Shown here one piece after another: positions 38,823 through 51,170 of a stretch of 64,000 nt of DNA. Every line of letters begins with the position of its first letter. Positions within the stretch are counted from its first letter, which is position 1. Source of the DNA: Rhodopseudomonas sp. BR0M22 (GTDB taxonomy: Bacteria > Pseudomonadota > Alphaproteobacteria > Rhizobiales > Xanthobacteraceae); NCBI RefSeq assembly GCF_010907035.1, contig NZ_QUMK01000020.1:1-64000 (forward strand). Direction: 5' to 3'. Both the position numbers and the translations under genes were made by a program. The notes under the pieces were generated by a model. It worked only from the letters and a program-made list of their open reading frames with translations, made no database searches and had not been told where the DNA came from.

Positions 38823-40031
38823 ATGAACCAGTCCTATCGGTGGGTGATCGTGGCGGCCGGCGGCGTGCTCGGCTGCGTCGCTGTCGGCGCGATGTTCTCG
38901 CTGCCGGTGCTGCTGCGGCCGATGTCGCAGGACACCGGCTGGTCGGTCACCGGCATCTCCACCGCGATGACGATCGGTTTTCTGGCGATGGCCGCCGCCA
39001 GTATGCTGTGGGGCAATCTGTCGGACAGGTTCGGCCCGCGCCCCGTCGTGCTCACCGGATCGGTGGTGCTGGCCATCAGTCTTGCGCTCGCCAGCCGCGC
39101 GACGTCGTTGATCGAATTCCAACTGCTGTTCGGCGCGCTGGTCGGCGCTGCGACAGCCGCGGTGTTCGCTCCGATGATGGCCTGCGTCACCAGCTGGTTC
39201 GATACCGGGCGCGGCCTCGCCGTGTCGCTGGTCTCCGCCGGGATGGGGATGGCGCCGTTGACGATGGCGCCGCTGGCGGCGTGGCTGGTGACGATCCACG
39301 ACTGGCGCGGCGCGATGCTGATCATCGCTGCGATCACCGCCGCGACGATGATCCCGGCCGCACTTCTGGTGCGGCGGCCGCCGGCGCTGGAGGCCGGCGG
39401 CGCGGAGGCGGCGCCCATCGGAGCCGACGACGAGATGACAGTCGGGCAGGCGGTGCGCTCGCCGCAATTCGTCACGCTGATGCTGGCCAATTTCTTCTGC
39501 TGCGCGACCCATTCCGGCCCGATCTTCCACACCGTCAGCTACGCGGTGACCTGCGGCATCCCGATGATCGCGGCGACCTCGATCTACAGCGTCGAGGGGC
39601 TGTCCGGAATGTTCGGCCGGATCGGCTTCGGGCTGGCCGGCGACCGCTTCGGCGCCCAGCGCGTGCTGGTCATCGGCCTTTTGGCGCAGGCGCTCGGCGT
39701 GCTCGCTTACGCCTTTGTCGGCGGGCTCGGCGGCTTCTACGCCGTCGCGGTCGCCGTCGGCTTCATCTACGCCGGCACCATGCCACTCTATGCGGTGATC
39801 ATCCGCGAGAACTTTCCGCTGCGGATGATGGGCACGATCGTCGGCGGCACCGCGATGGCGGGCAGCCTCGGCATGTCCACCGGCCCGGTGCTGGGCGGGC
39901 TGATCTACGATGCCTATGGCAGCTACGCGCCGATGTACGTCGCCTCCTGCGGCATGGGGCTCGCCGCGATGCTGATCCTGGCGACGTTCCGACCGTTCCC
40001 GCCGCGGCGGGTGGCATTGGCGGTGGCGTAG
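38823..40031 (+). CDS. MFS transporter
   Basis: 402 residues from ATG 38823 with about 12 membrane segments. The MFS loop 2-3 motif appears as GNLSDRFGPRPVVL and its repeat in the second half as GRIGFGLAGDRFGAQRVL. The pattern resembles the monocarboxylate/oxalate-formate-type branch. The substrate is unknown. The in-frame upstream extension lies in the palindrome and was not used. Confidence 0.9.
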   Translation: MNQSYRWVIVAAGGVLGCVAVGAMFSLPVLLRPMSQDTGWSVTGISTAMTIGFLAMAAASMLWGNLSDRFGPRPVVLTGSVVLAISLALASRATSLIEFQLLFGALVGAATAAVFAPMMACVTSWFDTGRGLAVSLVSAGMGMAPLTMAPLAAWLVTIHDWRGAMLIIAAITAATMIPAALLVRRPPALEAGGAEAAPIGADDEMTVGQAVRSPQFVTLMLANFFCCATHSGPIFHTVSYAVTCGIPMIAATSIYSVEGLSGMFGRIGFGLAGDRFGAQRVLVIGLLAQALGVLAYAFVGGLGGFYAVAVAVGFIYAGTMPLYAVIIRENFPLRMMGTIVGGTAMAGSLGMSTGPVLGGLIYDAYGSYAPMYVASCGMGLAAMLILATFRPFPPRRVALAVA

Positions 40032-40109
40032 GAGGGGCGAGGCCTCCCCGCGGGTGGTGCAAATGGGGATGTTACGACGGGTAAGCCGCGCCAGACGCCT
40101 GTTCTTCCC

Positions 40110-40583
40110 TCAGGGTAGTTCGATTGCCATAACTGTGCGCATGCGTCCGAGGTATTCGACTTCCTCGATTGGTTTCCACCCTAGCGCAGCGTAGTATGTT
40201 GGCAACGTGCCAGACGTGAAGAGATGGACGCGGCGAAATCCTAATTCAACAGCACGCGTCGTCAGTGCACGGATCAGCCTGATCCCGATCCCGTGCCCTC
40301 GCGCCGATTCGACCACGAAAAGCTGAGCCATCCACGGTGAAAGCTCGGGGCGTATCGTCATTTCACTCGCTAGCAAATTGACTGAGCCCATGTAAATTGG
40401 GCCGCGCCTGGCGACCAAAACTGATGGCAGTCGAGTTGATCGGGCTGCTTTCTTCAGGAAGTTCTCGTAATCGAGCTCAGTGTCGTGGCCGGTTAGCGCG
40501 CCCCAGTGCGCAAATTGAAGCGCGGCAATTGTAGTTACCAAATCGGGCCTATCGACCAAGTTCTCGATAAATGGATCGCTCAT
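40110..40583 (-). CDS. GNAT-family N-acetyltransferase
   Basis: 157 residues. The acetyl-CoA-binding signature is RGHGIGIRLIRAL (Q/RxxGxG/A type) preceded by AQLFVVESA, with the late YYAALGWKPIEEVEY motif. The target is unknown. Base composition is lower in G+C than the MFS gene beside it, marking the entry into the more foreign-looking patch. Confidence 0.88.
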   Translation of the reverse strand: MSDPFIENLVDRPDLVTTIAALQFAHWGALTGHDTELDYENFLKKAARSTRLPSVLVARRGPIYMGSVNLLASEMTIRPELSPWMAQLFVVESARGHGIGIRLIRALTTRAVELGFRRVHLFTSGTLPTYYAALGWKPIEEVEYLGRMRTVMAIELP

Positions 40584-40689
40584 GACAAACTGAAGCCTGC
40601 TATTTGGCAGGCCAGCCTAGTGTTCAGTGACCCGGATTTCCATTCACGCATTCTTACATTCGTTGAGTTCTGTTTTTTCAGGGGCGGTC

Positions 40690-40898
40690 CTCTGCGTGGC
40701 GGCGGGATCCGGCGCGATCGTGCCGCGGGCGTCTTCGATCAAGCCGCTTTGGGCTCGGCGGTGGATCGCCATGCGCTATCGGCCAAGCTGCGCAAGAACC
40801 GGAGGCATCTGGTGTGGTCCGGCGACCCAGGTTCGCCGCTGCAAGCCTTGATGGCGCTGCTTCCGAGTGCGGGCGCGAGGCGGCGGGCTGTTGGATAG
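40690..40898 (+). pseudogene. Frameshifted remnant of a LysR-type gene 3' end
   Basis: One frame reads VLCVAAGSGAIVP and, after the loss of about one base near 40721, another reads AAGVFDQAALGSAVDRHALSAK and on to the C-terminus. The intact LysR gene has CVAAGSGIAIVPAGVLDHAALGMAV in one frame. The N-terminal 225 or so residues are absent. The homology continues past the stop codon to about 41022, so DNA was copied, not just a gene end conserved. Confidence 0.75.
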
Positions 40899-41022
40899 CA
40901 GAAGGTCGTCCGACCGGGGCGCAATCTGCGTAACGCTAGTTGTTCGACCGCTTTGAGATTGAAGCAGGCTAGCGGCCTTGCTTGCGTGAGAATGGGGCGG
41001 CTGCTTGTGACTCTAAGCGGAC
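40690..41022. repeat. Direct repeat R1 (partner of 47640-47966)
   Basis: About 330 bases that align in the same orientation with 47640-47966, including noncoding sequence such as TTCGACCGCTTTGAGATTGA identical in both. The two copies flank the reverse transcriptase, metal-efflux, MFS and LysR genes. Confidence 0.75.
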
Positions 41023-41131
41023 GTTCTCATCATGCGCTCCCATATGCTCGATTTGGCGGCCTGCCGGTCCAATATCTTGAGACCAAATAATTCTCTCTTT
41101 GTTCAAAATCGACGACGAGATGGTGTCGGTG

Positions 41132-42751
41132 CTACTTCTTGCTAATTGCGATCGTTAAAAGCCTATTTAATGGCGTGTGGCTCCCCCAATTGGTCTTTGC
41201 ATTTTGCTTCTCAACCTTCGGCCATTTGCGCGAAGAGAAATAGATGGCGCTCTGAATGTAGGGGGAGGACGTAGTGTAAATGCCTTGTAAAGTGATCCTT
41301 CGGGAATGATCTCCATAACGTCCGACGAATATCGCCGCGACTGCCCGGAGCGTCTCGTGACGATTGGCGTCCTGAAGGATGTCAAGCGCGATCTTAACGG
41401 ACGTATCGTTGTGCTCGTCCGCTTGAGAGAGCGCAGCAAGAATCCACATTTTCTGCCAGTCGGTCAGCTCCGAGTCCACTAGCAGGGCCAAGAGCGAATT
41501 CAGAACGCTCTCACATTTCAGGAATTTGGCAACGTAAGATGCATATATCTGGGCCATTGATGGGCGCTTCTTGAATGACTCCAGCACATGTTGAAGTGCG
41601 TGGTCTGATTCAGCTTTCGCAAGCAATGGTAGGCAGAACCGCTCAATGTTCTCCTCTTGCCCGAGATAAATTCCGATGGAATCGAAGAGCTGCTTCGTTG
41701 CCTCCAGACTAAGTTCGTCCTCTTCTTGGTCGTCTTCCTCTTCGTCGTCATCGTCCCATTCGGACTGAAATCCGTAGTCGGCGTCGAAGTCCTCATCGTT
41801 GAGTTGTTCCCGGATCTCTTCGACCGCTTCGTCGAACAGCTCCTGCAGATCCGGCTCCTCTGAATGAAGCTGATTTTTTGGAATGATCTTGCACTTCGCT
41901 TCATTCAGAACAAGATCGTAGCTGCGCAGACGGGGGATGAGCTGTCGCAGCAAGGTCTCAGCAGCTTCGACGCTCTCGATAAAAACGTACAGATCGTCGA
42001 CGTAACGAGCTGCCAACACATCATTATCTTTTAAGAAACGATCGATTGGCTCCATGTAGAAATTTCCGAAGAGGTCTGATGGAAACATTCCCTGAAGTAT
42101 TCCACGCGAAGAACGGTTGCTTGTGTAGCTGGTTAAGAGCGTTTCGAGTCGAGTCAGCAGCTCGCTCGGATATCCAGAGTCGTTTAGCACGTTGATCAAC
42201 GTGTGAAGATTCATGGAGCCGAAGTAGTTGGCAACATCGATCTTGAGTATATATTTGATGCCCTGCTCCTGCGAATGCTTCACTAGGGCGCTCTGCAGCG
42301 CACTCCAGCAGGTCCTGGTAGGTGTGAACATCGCCGGGCTGTCCAGCGCCGCAAGTTGGTGACTAAACGAGCGTGAGTGGTCAGTCTTCTTCTCAACGAT
42401 AGGGGCCGCTTGGTCTGCCAGAATCTGATAAAGTAATCGATCGTGGGGGAGAAGAATGCTTCCTGGTCGTGAAAAGCTAGGCCCCAGTCGTACAGGATGC
42501 GCAGCGACCTGTATGCGAAAGGACTTTGGGACTTCGATCGTGACAGGCAGGCCCGGGCTGTATGCGCCCTTGGATAACGCCGCCTTCACCTCCAAAATGA
42601 GTTCATCGCCTGCCTTTGCATAGATGAAGCCGATGTGGGGAGCGTAGATGAAGTCGGATCGAAGGTCGTGAATAATCCGCGTGAGCGCGAGTTGCCAATC
42701 GATCTTGGCCATAACCGCCCCGTCTAGGCCGAAAGGTATCTTATCTGACAT
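41132..42751 (-). CDS. Reverse transcriptase of unassigned class with C-terminal helical extension
   Basis: 539 residues from ATG 42751, which has GGAG 8 bases upstream (a TTG at 42802 is also in frame). RT motifs: LKIDVANYFGSM (motif A, about 169-180), RGILQGMFPSDLFGNFYM (motif B, about 216-233), ARYVDDLYVF (catalytic YVDD, 250-253) and LVLNEAKCKI. An acidic linker (about 331-345) is followed by about 170 residues predicted to be mostly helical and repeat-like. There is no maturase domain, HNH nuclease or intron-like flank, and it is longer than retron RTs. A defence-associated (DRT/Abi-like) RT is the best guess. G+C is clearly below that of neighbours. Confidence 0.85.
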   Translation of the reverse strand: MSDKIPFGLDGAVMAKIDWQLALTRIIHDLRSDFIYAPHIGFIYAKAGDELILEVKAALSKGAYSPGLPVTIEVPKSFRIQVAAHPVRLGPSFSRPGSILLPHDRLLYQILADQAAPIVEKKTDHSRSFSHQLAALDSPAMFTPTRTCWSALQSALVKHSQEQGIKYILKIDVANYFGSMNLHTLINVLNDSGYPSELLTRLETLLTSYTSNRSSRGILQGMFPSDLFGNFYMEPIDRFLKDNDVLAARYVDDLYVFIESVEAAETLLRQLIPRLRSYDLVLNEAKCKIIPKNQLHSEEPDLQELFDEAVEEIREQLNDEDFDADYGFQSEWDDDDEEEDDQEEDELSLEATKQLFDSIGIYLGQEENIERFCLPLLAKAESDHALQHVLESFKKRPSMAQIYASYVAKFLKCESVLNSLLALLVDSELTDWQKMWILAALSQADEHNDTSVKIALDILQDANRHETLRAVAAIFVGRYGDHSRRITLQGIYTTSSPYIQSAIYFSSRKWPKVEKQNAKTNWGSHTPLNRLLTIAISKK

Positions 42752-43058
42752 GCTGACCGCTCCGTATCCGGGCAGGATGCGGCTCTGCTGGTTGCAATTC
42801 AACCCCTAGTTGGCGATGGGAGAGCTTGTATTCATGAACTGGCTGATGCGTCCTTATGGGAGAATGTCCGCTTGTGGCCCCTTGCAGCATCCGTCGCGCT
42901 CCCGCTTCGGTGCCGGTTCGAAGCGCAAGCGGACGTGCCCAATCAGCTCTTGGTCAGATGCAGCGGTGTCTGAACCAAAGGCTGATTGACCGGCTTCAGA
43001 ATTGGCAGTGGCGTAAGAGAGGGCGACGGCTGCTGTGCCGGCAGCACAGCGGTCGCCG
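42752..43058. other. Intergenic region between reverse transcriptase and MerR gene
   Basis: 307 bases without an intact gene. It holds the reverse transcriptase ribosome site, the remnant listed at 42886-42990, and a pair of G+C-rich hairpins near 43022-43068 that could end the MerR transcript. An upstream noncoding RNA for the reverse transcriptase, if it exists, would lie here. Confidence 0.55.
42886..42990 (-). pseudogene. Remnant A of the outer-membrane protein gene 3' end
   Basis: Read on the - strand, the end translates as VQTPLHLTKS then stop, matching VRTPLYLSSK then stop at the end of the intact gene 52814-53731. Its flank past the stop (GCAGCATCCGTCGC...) is shared with remnant B near 50829. 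Only the last few dozen codons remain, with much decay upstream. Confidence 0.55.
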
Positions 43059-46958: not shown

Positions 46959-47846
46959 ATGAGAATGATGGACCTCGACGACCTCGAGATCTTCCGCGCC
47001 GTCGTCAGGGAGGGCGGGGTCACCCGCGCGGCGGACCGGCTGCACCGGGTGCCGTCCAACGTCACCACCCGCATCAAGCAGCTCGAGGAGCGGATCGGGC
47101 ACAGCCTGTTTCGCCGGCAGGGGCGCGGTCTGGTTCTCACCGATGTCGGCCGCACCCTACTGAGCCACGCCGAACGTCTGCTGCAATTGGCCGATGCCGC
47201 CGAGCAGGAGTTGCGCAGCGGCAAGGCGAGGGGCGTGCTGCGGCTGGGGTCTCTGGAAAGCGCAGCCGGGGTGCGGCTGCCGCCGCTGCTGTCGCGCTTT
47301 CATGCGCGTTACCCCGATATCGCGATCCAGATGACGACCGACACCACCGCCGCGCTGCTTCGGCAGTTGGAGCGGTTCGAGATCGACGCCGCCTTCGTCT
47401 CAGAGCCGTTCGAGCCGGGACGTTTCACCTCGGTCGCGGCGTTCGACGAAGAACTGGTGCTGATCACCGCCAAGGGCGACCGCCCGCTGCGCCGCTCCGC
47501 CGACCTCGGCGGCAAGACCGTGGTGGCGTTTCCGCACGGCTGCTCCTACCGCCGGCGCCTGATGGAATGGTTGGCATCGGAAGGCGTATCACCCGACCGT
47601 ATTCTCGACCTCGGCTCGTATCACGCCATCGTCGCCTGCGTCGCGGCCGGCTCCGGCATCGCCATCGTGCCCGCAGGCGTACTCGATCACGCCGCTTTGG
47701 GCATGGCGGTGGATCGCCATGCACTACCGGCCAAACTGCGAAACAACCGGACGCATCTGGTCTGGTCCGGCGAGCCCGGCTCGCCGCTGCAAGCCTTGAT
47801 GGCTCTGCTTCCGAATGCGGGCGTGAGGCGGCGGCGCGGTGGATAG
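46959..47846 (+). CDS. LysR-family transcriptional regulator
   Basis: 295 residues. The N-terminal HTH is DLEIFRAVVREGGVTRAADRLHRVPSNVTTRIKQLEERIG (about 5-44), followed by a periplasmic-binding-protein-like effector domain. It is divergent from the YbfB-like MFS gene and likely controls it. Its last 70 codons and downstream flank are duplicated in degenerate form at 40690-41022. Confidence 0.93.
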   Translation: MRMMDLDDLEIFRAVVREGGVTRAADRLHRVPSNVTTRIKQLEERIGHSLFRRQGRGLVLTDVGRTLLSHAERLLQLADAAEQELRSGKARGVLRLGSLESAAGVRLPPLLSRFHARYPDIAIQMTTDTTAALLRQLERFEIDAAFVSEPFEPGRFTSVAAFDEELVLITAKGDRPLRRSADLGGKTVVAFPHGCSYRRRLMEWLASEGVSPDRILDLGSYHAIVACVAAGSGIAIVPAGVLDHAALGMAVDRHALPAKLRNNRTHLVWSGEPGSPLQALMALLPNAGVRRRRGG

Positions 47847-47966
47847 CAGGGGGGCGTTTGAGCGGGCACTATCTGCGTGACGCTGGTCTTTCGACCGCTT
47901 TGAGATTGAAGCCGGCGTGCAGCCTTGCCTGCGTAAGAGTGGGGGTGCTTGTGAGCCTGAGAGGAC
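47640..47966. repeat. Direct repeat R2 (partner of 40690-41022)
   Basis: Covers the 3' end of the LysR gene and about 120 bases beyond the stop. It aligns with R1 in the same orientation with substitutions and short gaps. This copy keeps the reading frame, so it is the likely original or the better-preserved copy. Confidence 0.75.
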
Positions 47967-48941: not shown

Positions 48942-50552
48942 ATGGAAACGTTCAGAAGCGTGCTCTGCAGCTGGCCCAGCCGCAAGTCGGTATACTTCAA
49001 GTATGCCTTCGCCCTCTTTGTAGCGCAAATCGGAAGTGGTTTTGCTCATGCTGAGATTGTCGGGGATCCCGGTGACGACTGGCGCCTTAACTTGAACGCT
49101 CAATTCAGCGCGCCTGGTCCTCACCAGTCGAGGCAGGACCACCACCTCTACCGCATCGATTTCAAATGCAAAGCGACGGCTGCGCTTCCGATGAAGAAGG
49201 TCGTCGATTTATTAGTCATGCGGTCTGTAACGACAAGCCACTCGGTTATCATTAGTAAAGACTATGTTGCTCCGGATGCCTCCGGAAAATTGAAGATTCC
49301 TGAAAAACCTCTCAGCTTGCTTACGCCGTATGCAGTCAATGCTCAGAATATTTCAGATAACCGGGCCATCTGTCCGAAGGTGCCGATTATCGTTTCCGGT
49401 ACACAGCCGATCTATATTGTCGCGATGGTCAACTATTCGACCACTAACGCGCCCGGCGCAATCATCAAGATTGGCTACTCCATCGCCAAGCTGATCCCTG
49501 CCTTGTGGTCTGTTTTCGAACCAGCTGCAATGCCGGCGAGTATTGGCAATAAGCTGTCCGGCGTCGGCGACACGAAGGGGCCGATGGAAGATATTCTTTC
49601 GACGTTCAACGACGATAAGAGCTTTGGGAAAGGTTTCGATCTCGACGTCGGACGGTATCTTGTGAAGACTGATTACAATGAGATCGAAGTCACGGTAGCC
49701 AAGCTCGACTCGGTTGTGTTGGCAAAGCCAAGTTCTTTGCAGGAGACCTTTCGGACACAGATTCGAGCTGCGCCGGATCAGATCAAGCCCGACAGTGTTG
49801 GATCGACTTGCGCCAATGTTGCTGGCGCCTTGAAAGACGCGGGATTTTCGGAGGGCGAGGATATACCTTACGCGCTCGTCAATTTGGCGAGCCGCCTCGG
49901 TAGCAAGCCGAAACTAATAGAATGCTTGGAGGCTACCGGTACGACCGATACTGCACTCAAGCTTGGGCCCGTACTTTGGAAGTGGATTATCAAAAAGCTT
50001 GTGATTACGGATGATGACCTAGCCAACATTCAGCCATCATCATTCGCCGATGCCAAGCGTCGAATTTACAACTTCATTGTCGCATTATCGCGGATAACCA
50101 AGGGAGATACGGCCCGCGCCGCAGAGGGAGTGGCACAACTTAAGATGATTACGACCGAAAAGGTGAATCTTGTAGATACGATTGATGACCTTTTAGGCGG
50201 TTCTGGGAGCCTTCAGCCCAATGAATTGGCGCAGCGCCTTGTCAGCAAAGGTTATCTCCGCTTCGGCTGCATGGCGCCGGTGGGAGATAAGAACGGGGCT
50301 GGCATGTCGAACGGCGTGGGCTCATTCCTGATGATCAGGGCGTCAGCCGACGTAAACTCTGCGAAACTCGCAGATGCGCTACCTGTGCACGTCGTGTTCA
50401 AGCGCGGGCTGATCTCAAGCATACTCGCATTTCAAGAGCCTGGTTGGGTGAAGACGAACCTGGACGCCAATGAAGGTAACTGCAATGGCTTTAGGGTGAT
50501 CGATGGTGCAGTGGCCGAAAGCAGTGGAGGTCGTCTGCTCGCTACTCAATAG
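48942..50552 (+). CDS. Orphan secreted protein, function unknown
   Basis: 536 residues with an N-terminal signal peptide (hydrophobic about 20-36, cleavage near FAHAE). The mature protein is soluble-looking, with few Cys and no repeats, lipobox or known catalytic motif that I can see. The only hint of a second hydrophobic part is near 165-185 (IIKIGYSIAKLIPALW). G+C is well below the ribosomal genes beside it, and no functional partner adjoins it, so horizontal origin is likely. The ATG start has no strong ribosome site but leads straight into the signal sequence. Confidence 0.75.
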   Translation: METFRSVLCSWPSRKSVYFKYAFALFVAQIGSGFAHAEIVGDPGDDWRLNLNAQFSAPGPHQSRQDHHLYRIDFKCKATAALPMKKVVDLLVMRSVTTSHSVIISKDYVAPDASGKLKIPEKPLSLLTPYAVNAQNISDNRAICPKVPIIVSGTQPIYIVAMVNYSTTNAPGAIIKIGYSIAKLIPALWSVFEPAAMPASIGNKLSGVGDTKGPMEDILSTFNDDKSFGKGFDLDVGRYLVKTDYNEIEVTVAKLDSVVLAKPSSLQETFRTQIRAAPDQIKPDSVGSTCANVAGALKDAGFSEGEDIPYALVNLASRLGSKPKLIECLEATGTTDTALKLGPVLWKWIIKKLVITDDDLANIQPSSFADAKRRIYNFIVALSRITKGDTARAAEGVAQLKMITTEKVNLVDTIDDLLGGSGSLQPNELAQRLVSKGYLRFGCMAPVGDKNGAGMSNGVGSFLMIRASADVNSAKLADALPVHVVFKRGLISSILAFQEPGWVKTNLDANEGNCNGFRVIDGAVAESSGGRLLATQ

Positions 50553-51170
50553 GGTTGCCGGTTTGTAGACGGATTCGGTTGTCCGTCGCACCCGAGCCGC
50601 TCCGCGGAAGCGCTTCGGCGGCTTCACATCTTCGAATGGAGATCATGGTTCTATCACCGGCAAATCGTTCTGCAATCAAGCCCATGTTCGACAAAGGGGC
50701 TCATCTCGTTCTTATGGGCGACTCTTCGGTTCGATCTGCGCGTCACGCCGGAGTTAGGTTTAAGTTGCTGAGAGGGCGACAAATTCGCTATGAGGGATAA
50801 GGTGTCGCGATGTCCGCTACTGACCCATCGCAGCATCCGTCGCCCGCTTTGGTGCCGGCGCTAAGCGCAAGCTGAGGTGACCTGTCCGGCTCTTCATTAT
50901 ATGCGGCGGCGTCTGAACCAAAGGCGGATCGGCCGGCGTCGCTGTCCACGATACCTGCGCGGTGATGCAGAATAGGTGGTTGTCGGTGTCGTCGATCTTG
51001 CAATGATCGAGCGTAGCCAGTCTCGGCGTGGCGACCGGCTCGGTGCTCGCCGCGCTGATCAGCGATTGCGCTGGCAGCTAAGTGGCGGTCATTCTTGCTT
51101 CCGGCGCCGCGGCCCAACGCCGCGATGCCGAGCCGCGCGGCGTTCGGGTCTGTCGCTCCGCCCGCTGGCG
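50553..51170. other. Intergenic region with outer-membrane gene remnant
   Basis: 618 bases. Apart from remnant B (50829-51010) no gene is convincing. A short + strand ORF at 50555-50800 has no recognisable features. Confidence 0.5.
50829..51010 (-). pseudogene. Remnant B of the outer-membrane protein gene 3' end
   Basis: The + strand here (GTCCACGATACCTGCGCGGT then a run to GGTGGTTGTCGGTGTCGTCG) aligns with the intact gene at about 52875-52925 (GTCCACGACACCTGTGCGGT, then GCGGTTGTCGTTGTCGTCC). The 3' flank is shared with remnant A. Frame is lost in several places. Confidence 0.6.

Follow-up and report, generated by a model that had tools for sequence, protein, structure and literature searches.

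Class 1 defence reverse transcriptases (RTs) combine an RT domain with an alpha-helical repeat (alphaRep) domain and are described as synthesising DNA in a template-independent and sometimes protein-primed manner (PMC13174585, PMC9508834). According to the individual reports, the priming residue sits in different parts of the protein. In AbiA, the primer is Y298 or Y303, within a partly disordered loop (residues 290-310) between the RT and helical domains (PMC11077055). Similarly, DRT1 primes from S402, within a stretch (residues 382-478) lacking resolved structure (PMC13275509). AbiK uses Y44 of an N-terminal loop (PMC9508834), and DRT3b and DRT9 are reported to prime from C-terminal tails (PMC13174585 for DRT3b). 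DRT4 (PMC13213688) and AbiK (PMC9508834) are presented as template-independent enzymes encoded by a single gene. For DRT8, antiphage activity is reported, with no mechanism established (PMC13213688, PMC13314766).

The window analysed here is a stretch of 64,000 nucleotides from Rhodopseudomonas sp. BR0M22 (contig NZ_QUMK01000020.1), and it carries an RT gene that a preliminary description had presented as unclassified and as a possible new member of the defence-associated (DRT/Abi-like) RT groups. By its profile match, the protein is instead an ordinary full-length RT_UG20, a family already modelled in PADLOC (PDLC03758), from which it shows no difference: it scores 781.9 bits over positions 1-511 of the 511-position profile. 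Among the best 25 of 81 PADLOC families, the runners-up are UG21 (207 bits), UG22 (170 bits) and DRT8 (142 bits). The NCBIfam models Drt5, group II, Drt3a, Drt4, AbiA and St85 retron all fall far under their cut-offs; for example, the group II RT model gives 66.2 bits against a cut-off of 300 and the St85 retron model 32.8 bits against 235. AbiA shares the succession of an RT and a helical domain with UG20, whereas its longer profile (615 positions) yields only 36.7 bits against a cut-off of 250. In an RT-core tree of 33 rows, built without L070 (in which the YxDD motif was not found), UG20 forms a single clade (support 97/96) that holds the window RT and is separate from the group II and retron rows. 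Within it, the window copy adjoins that of Bradyrhizobium rifense (100/99). The same tree does not unite the DRT8 rows, and its retron, group II, UG21 and L037 rows sit on long branches. The looser proposal of an RT of the UG/DRT kind was thus sound, given the profile match and a helical domain resembling those of protein-primed, untemplated polymerases.

The gene is real, intact and under purifying selection. A GGAG is visible 8 bases ahead of its ATG, and the frame listing also holds a longer, TTG-started version extending to 42802. Pfam RVT_1 covers residues 142-290 (E 1.6e-17; 64.4 bits, cut-off 29.6), and Y250-V251-D252-D253 together with D172 is invariant in 9/9 UG20 proteins, which bears out the core RT motifs, YVDD included, that had been read from the sequence. 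Two further Pfam hits lie below cut-off and are neither maturase nor HNH; with the retron and group II scores, they agree with the reported lack of maturase, HNH and retron hallmarks. DRT1 is described as having a nitrilase effector domain, whereas the Pfam scan of the window RT found no fused nitrilase or phosphohydrolase domain, the feature of class 3 UG/DRT proteins. The dN/dS ratio between the window RT and the B. rifense copy (L011) is 0.086, with 0.04 for the linker alone; for L014 and L028, both rhizobial, it is 0.051, with 0.10 for the linker. Two further pairs had saturated dS across the full gene.

The AlphaFold2 model of the protein (pLDDT 81.9, pTM 0.81) was built from 17 sequences, 7 of them UG20, and an earlier model from 7 sequences (pLDDT 52) was set aside. 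In this model the RT domain, ending near residue 300, is followed by an alpha-helical repeat domain, which is the class 1 layout. The C-terminal repeats suggested from the sequence are helical in the prediction as well; their length, put at about 170 residues, comes instead to about 200. Comparison by VIA-align showed that, among the 50 entries listed, both domains are matched only by class 1 enzymes, over 392-455 residues: DRT6, DRT4 (two entries), UG15, AbiK (three entries), AbiA and Abi-P2. Individual values were Z 21.1 with 447 residues aligned for DRT6 9wy8 (rmsd 4.5), Z 20.3 with 448 for DRT4 9vdo, Z 17.9 with 392 for AbiA 8oz7, Z 17.4 with 447 for AbiK 7r06 and Z 16.6 with 393 for Abi-P2 7r08. 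Group II, DGR, retron, DRT2, DRT9, CART-CAPP, R2 and LINE-1 enzymes align over 185-293 residues, mostly of the RT domain; ranked by Z alone, group II and DGR RTs come out on top, with a group II enzyme first at Z 23.0 over 258 residues. The first five Foldseek matches are DRT4, UG15 and DRT6 chains, and the 12-helix domain resembles those of DRT6, DRT4 and AbiK. Collectively, the predicted fold is good evidence for a class 1 mechanism. Between the two domains, pLDDT drops below 50 at residues 312-314 and 316-340.

Table 1. Features of the UG20 locus, in coordinates of the window.
Feature	Position	Strand	Basis or remark
UG20 reverse transcriptase gene	41132..42751	-	539 aa; ATG at 42751, stop 41132-41134
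RT domain, about residues 16-295, catalytic D172/D252/D253	41867..42706	-	RVT_1, model elements H16 to E291, invariant columns
Disordered acidic linker, residues 312-338, including Y326	41738..41818	-	Low pLDDT
Y326, candidate priming residue, motif YGFQSEW	41774-41776	-	Tyr conserved in UG20 linkers
Predicted alpha-helical repeat (alphaRep) domain, residues 339-538	41138..41737	-	12 helices in model
Inserted segment holding the RT gene, 2,958 bases	40041..42998		Empty site in G125, G199, G170
Left copy of imperfect 25/26-bp direct repeat bounding the insertion	40016..40040	+	Single copy at empty sites
Right copy of imperfect 25/26-bp direct repeat	43001..43026	+	Single copy at empty sites
Second copy of LysR gene 3' end and downstream DNA	40723..41002	+	Other copy 47671-47949
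Second copy of fragment 50810-50940	42864..42997	+	78% similar
GNAT-like acetyltransferase ORF (named by eye) on the insertion	40110..40583	-	Frame listing

A low G+C content, a position between repeats and mobility had all been claimed for the gene, and all three hold. Its G+C content is 51.5%, against about 64% for the window (the latter read by eye). Of 15 further congeneric genomes searched, three have window positions 40040 and 42999 adjacent, and none of the 15 matches the RT part of the query (Table 1). Within the insertion, the copied LysR end matches its counterpart (85 and 83%), the whole LysR gene standing at the counterpart, and the DNA on the other side of the RT gene is likewise a copy of a fragment found elsewhere in the window. 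The copied flanks match DNA that bounds another low-GC gene, at 48942-50552. This 536-aa ORF (GC 52.6%) has no Pfam or PADLOC match at thresholds of 1e-5 and 1e-10, and it sits between the LysR end and the fragment that are copied around the RT, so that it marks a second cargo slot. At that slot, G125 carries other cargo (56% GC) and G028 and G181 carry almost none. The GNAT-like ORF that shares the insertion with the RT gene has no Pfam match at 1e-5 and is absent beside the other UG20 genes compared.

The acidic hinge of the preliminary description is borne out, with 27 D/E and a single K/R across residues 296-345. Within it, Y326, G327, F328, Q329 and W332 are kept in nine UG20 proteins of identity down to 36%, and the acidic run behind this motif differs in length among them. 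Wherever the linker can be read, which is in 15 UG20 copies with the broken ones counted, the tyrosine is present; a sixteenth (L021) starts just past the position, at a contig end. The YGFQ..W core differs in two of the 15, being YGFEVEW in Rhizobium acidisoli and YGLQSEW in the broken second copy of B. rifense. The acidic codon tract, varying in length between relatives, may be prone to slippage.

A tyrosine at a similar spot of the linker also occurs in DRT8 (PDLC03783) and RT_UG21 (PDLC03759), which are among the next-best families, resemble UG20 in length and layout and are about 15-22% identical to the window protein. It lies 68-87 residues past the last Asp of YxDD in 28/28 UG20, UG21 and DRT8 proteins listed (68-77 in 26 of them), a count that omits L013 and L016 (partial UG20), L065 (partial DRT8, linker tyrosine visible) and L066 (DRT4). 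Ten DRT8 proteins, 21-37% identical to the first, have 24 invariant columns, of which the linker tyrosine Y300 is the only one beyond the RT core; in a 17-protein DRT8 alignment, this column drops off the list of invariant and near-invariant positions. None of the linker columns is invariant in the mixed alignments (A3, A6 and A7). The acidic tract is regular in UG20 and uneven in DRT8, with 8-18 and 3-10 acidic residues, respectively, in the 25 residues after the tyrosine.

The linker tyrosine was tested against shuffled sequences. In a first column test of 12 rows, five of which were UG20, tyrosine reached 8/12, against at most five in 200 shuffles. With 16 more independent UG20, UG21 and DRT8 rows, the best tyrosine column reached 6/16 and was matched by 23 of 300 shuffles, which is not significant. 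An alignment-free test, devised after that outcome, found a tyrosine 34-53 residues past the LNxxK of the RT in 16/16 proteins (20-residue width; 0/2000 shuffles). Narrowing the width to 16 residues gave 15/16 (0/2000 shuffles), and widening it to 24 gave 16/16, equalled by 5 of 2000 shuffles. Tyrosine alone of the twenty amino acids stands out (0/300 shuffles), the next being T (18/300). The shuffles overstate the evidence because the 16 proteins are related (up to 47% identical). Further, the linker tyrosine is not exclusive to UG20, UG21 and DRT8, because four controls (two UG9 and two DRT4) have one in the same test window, at offset 44-45.

Elsewhere in the protein, no invariant tyrosine precedes Y108 among the nine UG20 proteins, and their last 40 residues have none either. 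An N-terminal loop of the AbiK type, with its reported primer Y44, and a C-terminal tail of the DRT3b or DRT9 type would therefore hold no candidate. Given the precedent of AbiA, whose priming tyrosine is reported from the equivalent flexible interdomain loop, and of DRT1, whose S402 lies in the stretch lacking resolved structure, and since the two terminal regions hold no invariant tyrosine, Y326 is the best candidate primer, with S32 as runner-up.

Based on these comparisons, we infer, with a probability of roughly 0.6, that UG20 is a one-gene defence RT that works like AbiA, AbiK and DRT4, by protein-primed, untemplated DNA synthesis from Y326. The RT palm (D172, D252, D253) would add deoxynucleotides without a nucleic-acid template, and the alphaRep domain would take the place of both thumb and template and grip the growing strand. 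Synthesis would be primed by the Y326 hydroxyl, located in the flexible acidic linker that joins the lobes, and the single-stranded DNA would remain covalently bound to the enzyme, which may act as an oligomer. In normal cells the DNA would be low; phage entry would stabilise it or cause it to be made in quantity. It would then poison or sequester replication functions, so that phage spread is halted in a toxic-DNA or abortive form of defence.

A bolder extension, which we regard as doubtful, would make UG20, UG21 and DRT8 one branch that primes from a linker tyrosine, with the UG20 acidic tract as a built-in DNA mimic and switch. The tract would fill the product channel and keep the enzyme quiet until it is displaced, as the tyrosine moves into the active site or phage factors bind; the hinge would thus serve as primer and switch at once.

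Of the competing explanations, the one that survives best, itself rather unlikely, keeps the class 1 enzyme and gives Y326, or the whole YGFQSEW motif, the task of stacking on or guiding the DNA, with another hydroxyl such as that of S32 as primer. Aromatic residues that stack on DNA are reported for AbiK (Y142, Y245 and F299) and for AbiA (Y363), whose helical domain carries some of them, and the tyrosines in the linker windows of the UG9 and DRT4 controls would suit such a general task. S32 is invariant in 9/9 UG20 proteins and sits, in the model, in a loop between H16-29 and H38-60. However, Y326 lies where pLDDT is below 50, unlike a fixed stacking residue, and the DRT8 residue aligned to S32 is T, N, S or G, whereas the linker tyrosine recurs.

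Much less probable is a class 2-like enzyme for which an unrecognised noncoding RNA (ncRNA) templates a defined product, as DRT2, DRT3, DRT9 and DRT10 are reported to rely on ncRNAs of such a kind. The closest pair, the window RT and L011 (86%), does share DNA similarity for 91 bases upstream and about 35 bases downstream of the gene. However, the similar DNA of L014/L028 (81%) spans -12 to the stop; in L015/L028 (72%) it begins with the start codon and goes on for two bases after the stop, and in L012/window (71%) it ends within the gene. At gathering scores, Rfam reported only a distant tRNA-Trp in the whole window and no intron or retron RNA, the retron check being limited to Rfam, which need not hold all retron RNAs; a permissive search of 40584-43058 gave one weak, chance-level match, inside the RT gene. 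Further, DRT2 and DRT9 structures align essentially to the RT half of the model. No linked ncRNA is thus indicated, because the compared pairs lose their similarity at the ends of the gene or close to them, a measure of DNA-sequence conservation only; the ncRNA earlier proposed for the flanks gains no support. A linked ncRNA was accordingly rejected as the default, three of the four close pairs being similar only to the gene ends and Rfam giving nothing above gathering scores near the gene. A separate ARAGORN tRNA-Trp call at 39332-39425 (minus strand), inside an MFS-like ORF and with no Rfam call there, is probably false.

Slightly less probable again is protein-templated synthesis of a defined repeat in the style of DRT3b, instead of random DNA. 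DRT3b is described as a class 1 alphaRep RT with side-chain gates, which speaks for this reading; its primer, however, is a tyrosine of the C-terminal tail, a region in which UG20 has no invariant tyrosine. Finally, the chance that the gene is a retron, group II intron, DGR or domesticated RT outside defence is very small: the RT domain does align well with those of the retron, group II and DGR families, but the retron and group II scores lie far under their cut-offs, Rfam at gathering scores shows no matching RNA in the window, UG20 is a separate clade in the RT-core tree and the model contains an alphaRep domain.

UG20 is rare and patchy in the genomes searched. At family level (E <= 1e-30), 6 of 391 genomes match, the window's own included. 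At order level (E <= 1e-25), 7 of 397 do, three of which (L022, L023, L024) are DRT8 or UG9 by PADLOC; at phylum level, 4 of 398 pass, two of them (L025, L026) DRT8. None of 14 control genomes matches the window RT. A copy that Candidatus Manganitrophus, a Nitrospirota MAG, carries on a plasmid (63% identity) falls within the rhizobial UG20 proteins (94/96) and is nearer the window copy than is the G327 copy from the window's own family, and this grouping suggests horizontal transfer. A phage-borne gene was considered and rejected: pattern searches of viral contigs for UG20 returned 10, 49 and 5 matches with no relative among them, a UG21 query found nothing there, and a phage collection gave one weak partial RT match, so that UG20 was not confirmed in either source.

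Among 16 UG20 loci, nine are intact, six broken and one cut at a contig end. The broken copies comprise a split gene (SZCCT0138), two frameshifted ones (G329 and R. acidisoli), one with an internal loss (G088), the second B. rifense copy (frameshifted and truncated) and a Hoeflea MAG copy with an early stop; assembly may account for some of these. Decay of this sort agrees with a fast turnover of defence genes, though it is not specific to them. In the G329 copy (L006), the frameshift falls in the acidic linker. The two pieces in Bradyrhizobium SZCCT0138 (L013, L018) are opposite in orientation and about 11 kb apart, the genes between them resembling a type I restriction system by eye, which is either a rearrangement or an assembly effect.

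Gene neighbourhoods (ORFs of at least 90 aa around 14 UG20 pieces) revealed no neighbour recurring across distant copies, a transposon helper shared by G329 and R. acidisoli excepted, and an operon partner was therefore rejected. Other common neighbours are confined to near relatives, namely B. rifense with SZCCT0138 and Ai1a-2 with the second B. rifense copy. In contrast, DRT8 has a PD-(D/E)XK partner at one locus (L038). PADLOC, run on hand-picked ORFs, placed defence genes beside three of the five foreign UG20 loci scanned: Lamassu LmuA/LmuB in Sinorhizobium medicae, GajA/GajB-like genes in Bradyrhizobium Ai1a-2 and HerA in R. acidisoli, where SIR2 and DarT are also annotated. It gave none for two ORFs each at L011 and L014, nor for the window ORF 48942-50549. 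Around the Manganitrophus copy, toxin-antitoxin genes are annotated. With defence neighbours at some loci only, a role in phage protection is a candidate function on this genomic evidence.

Some neighbourhoods are of interest in themselves. Directly upstream of the S. medicae UG20 gene is a 1281-aa CHAT-domain protein (L028:1950-5792), LmuA/LmuB being downstream. In Aminobacter (L036:2995-6677), a DRT8 gene is followed by a retron-type RT-DUF3800 gene, two RTs in tandem, with a DUF87 protein upstream. UG9 RTs (L042:2764-4476 and L043:2776-4476) adjoin a DNA polymerase gene and end in EVSGYD and EVSEYD; this tyrosine tail recalls the reported priming tails of DRT9 (a peptide ending NYDYE) and DRT3b.

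UG20 is a catalogued but little-studied RT group; the literature searched, which does not extend to the main UG/Abi survey (Mestre et al. 2022), contains nothing on UG20 RTs. The prediction of a linker tyrosine is the new part. The probable role of the UG20 RT is protection against phages through DNA built on an amino acid of the enzyme itself, and to judge from the sequences compared, that amino acid is most likely the tyrosine in the acidic hinge. With a predicted primer, a confidently modelled fold and a layout of one gene, UG20 is readily testable.
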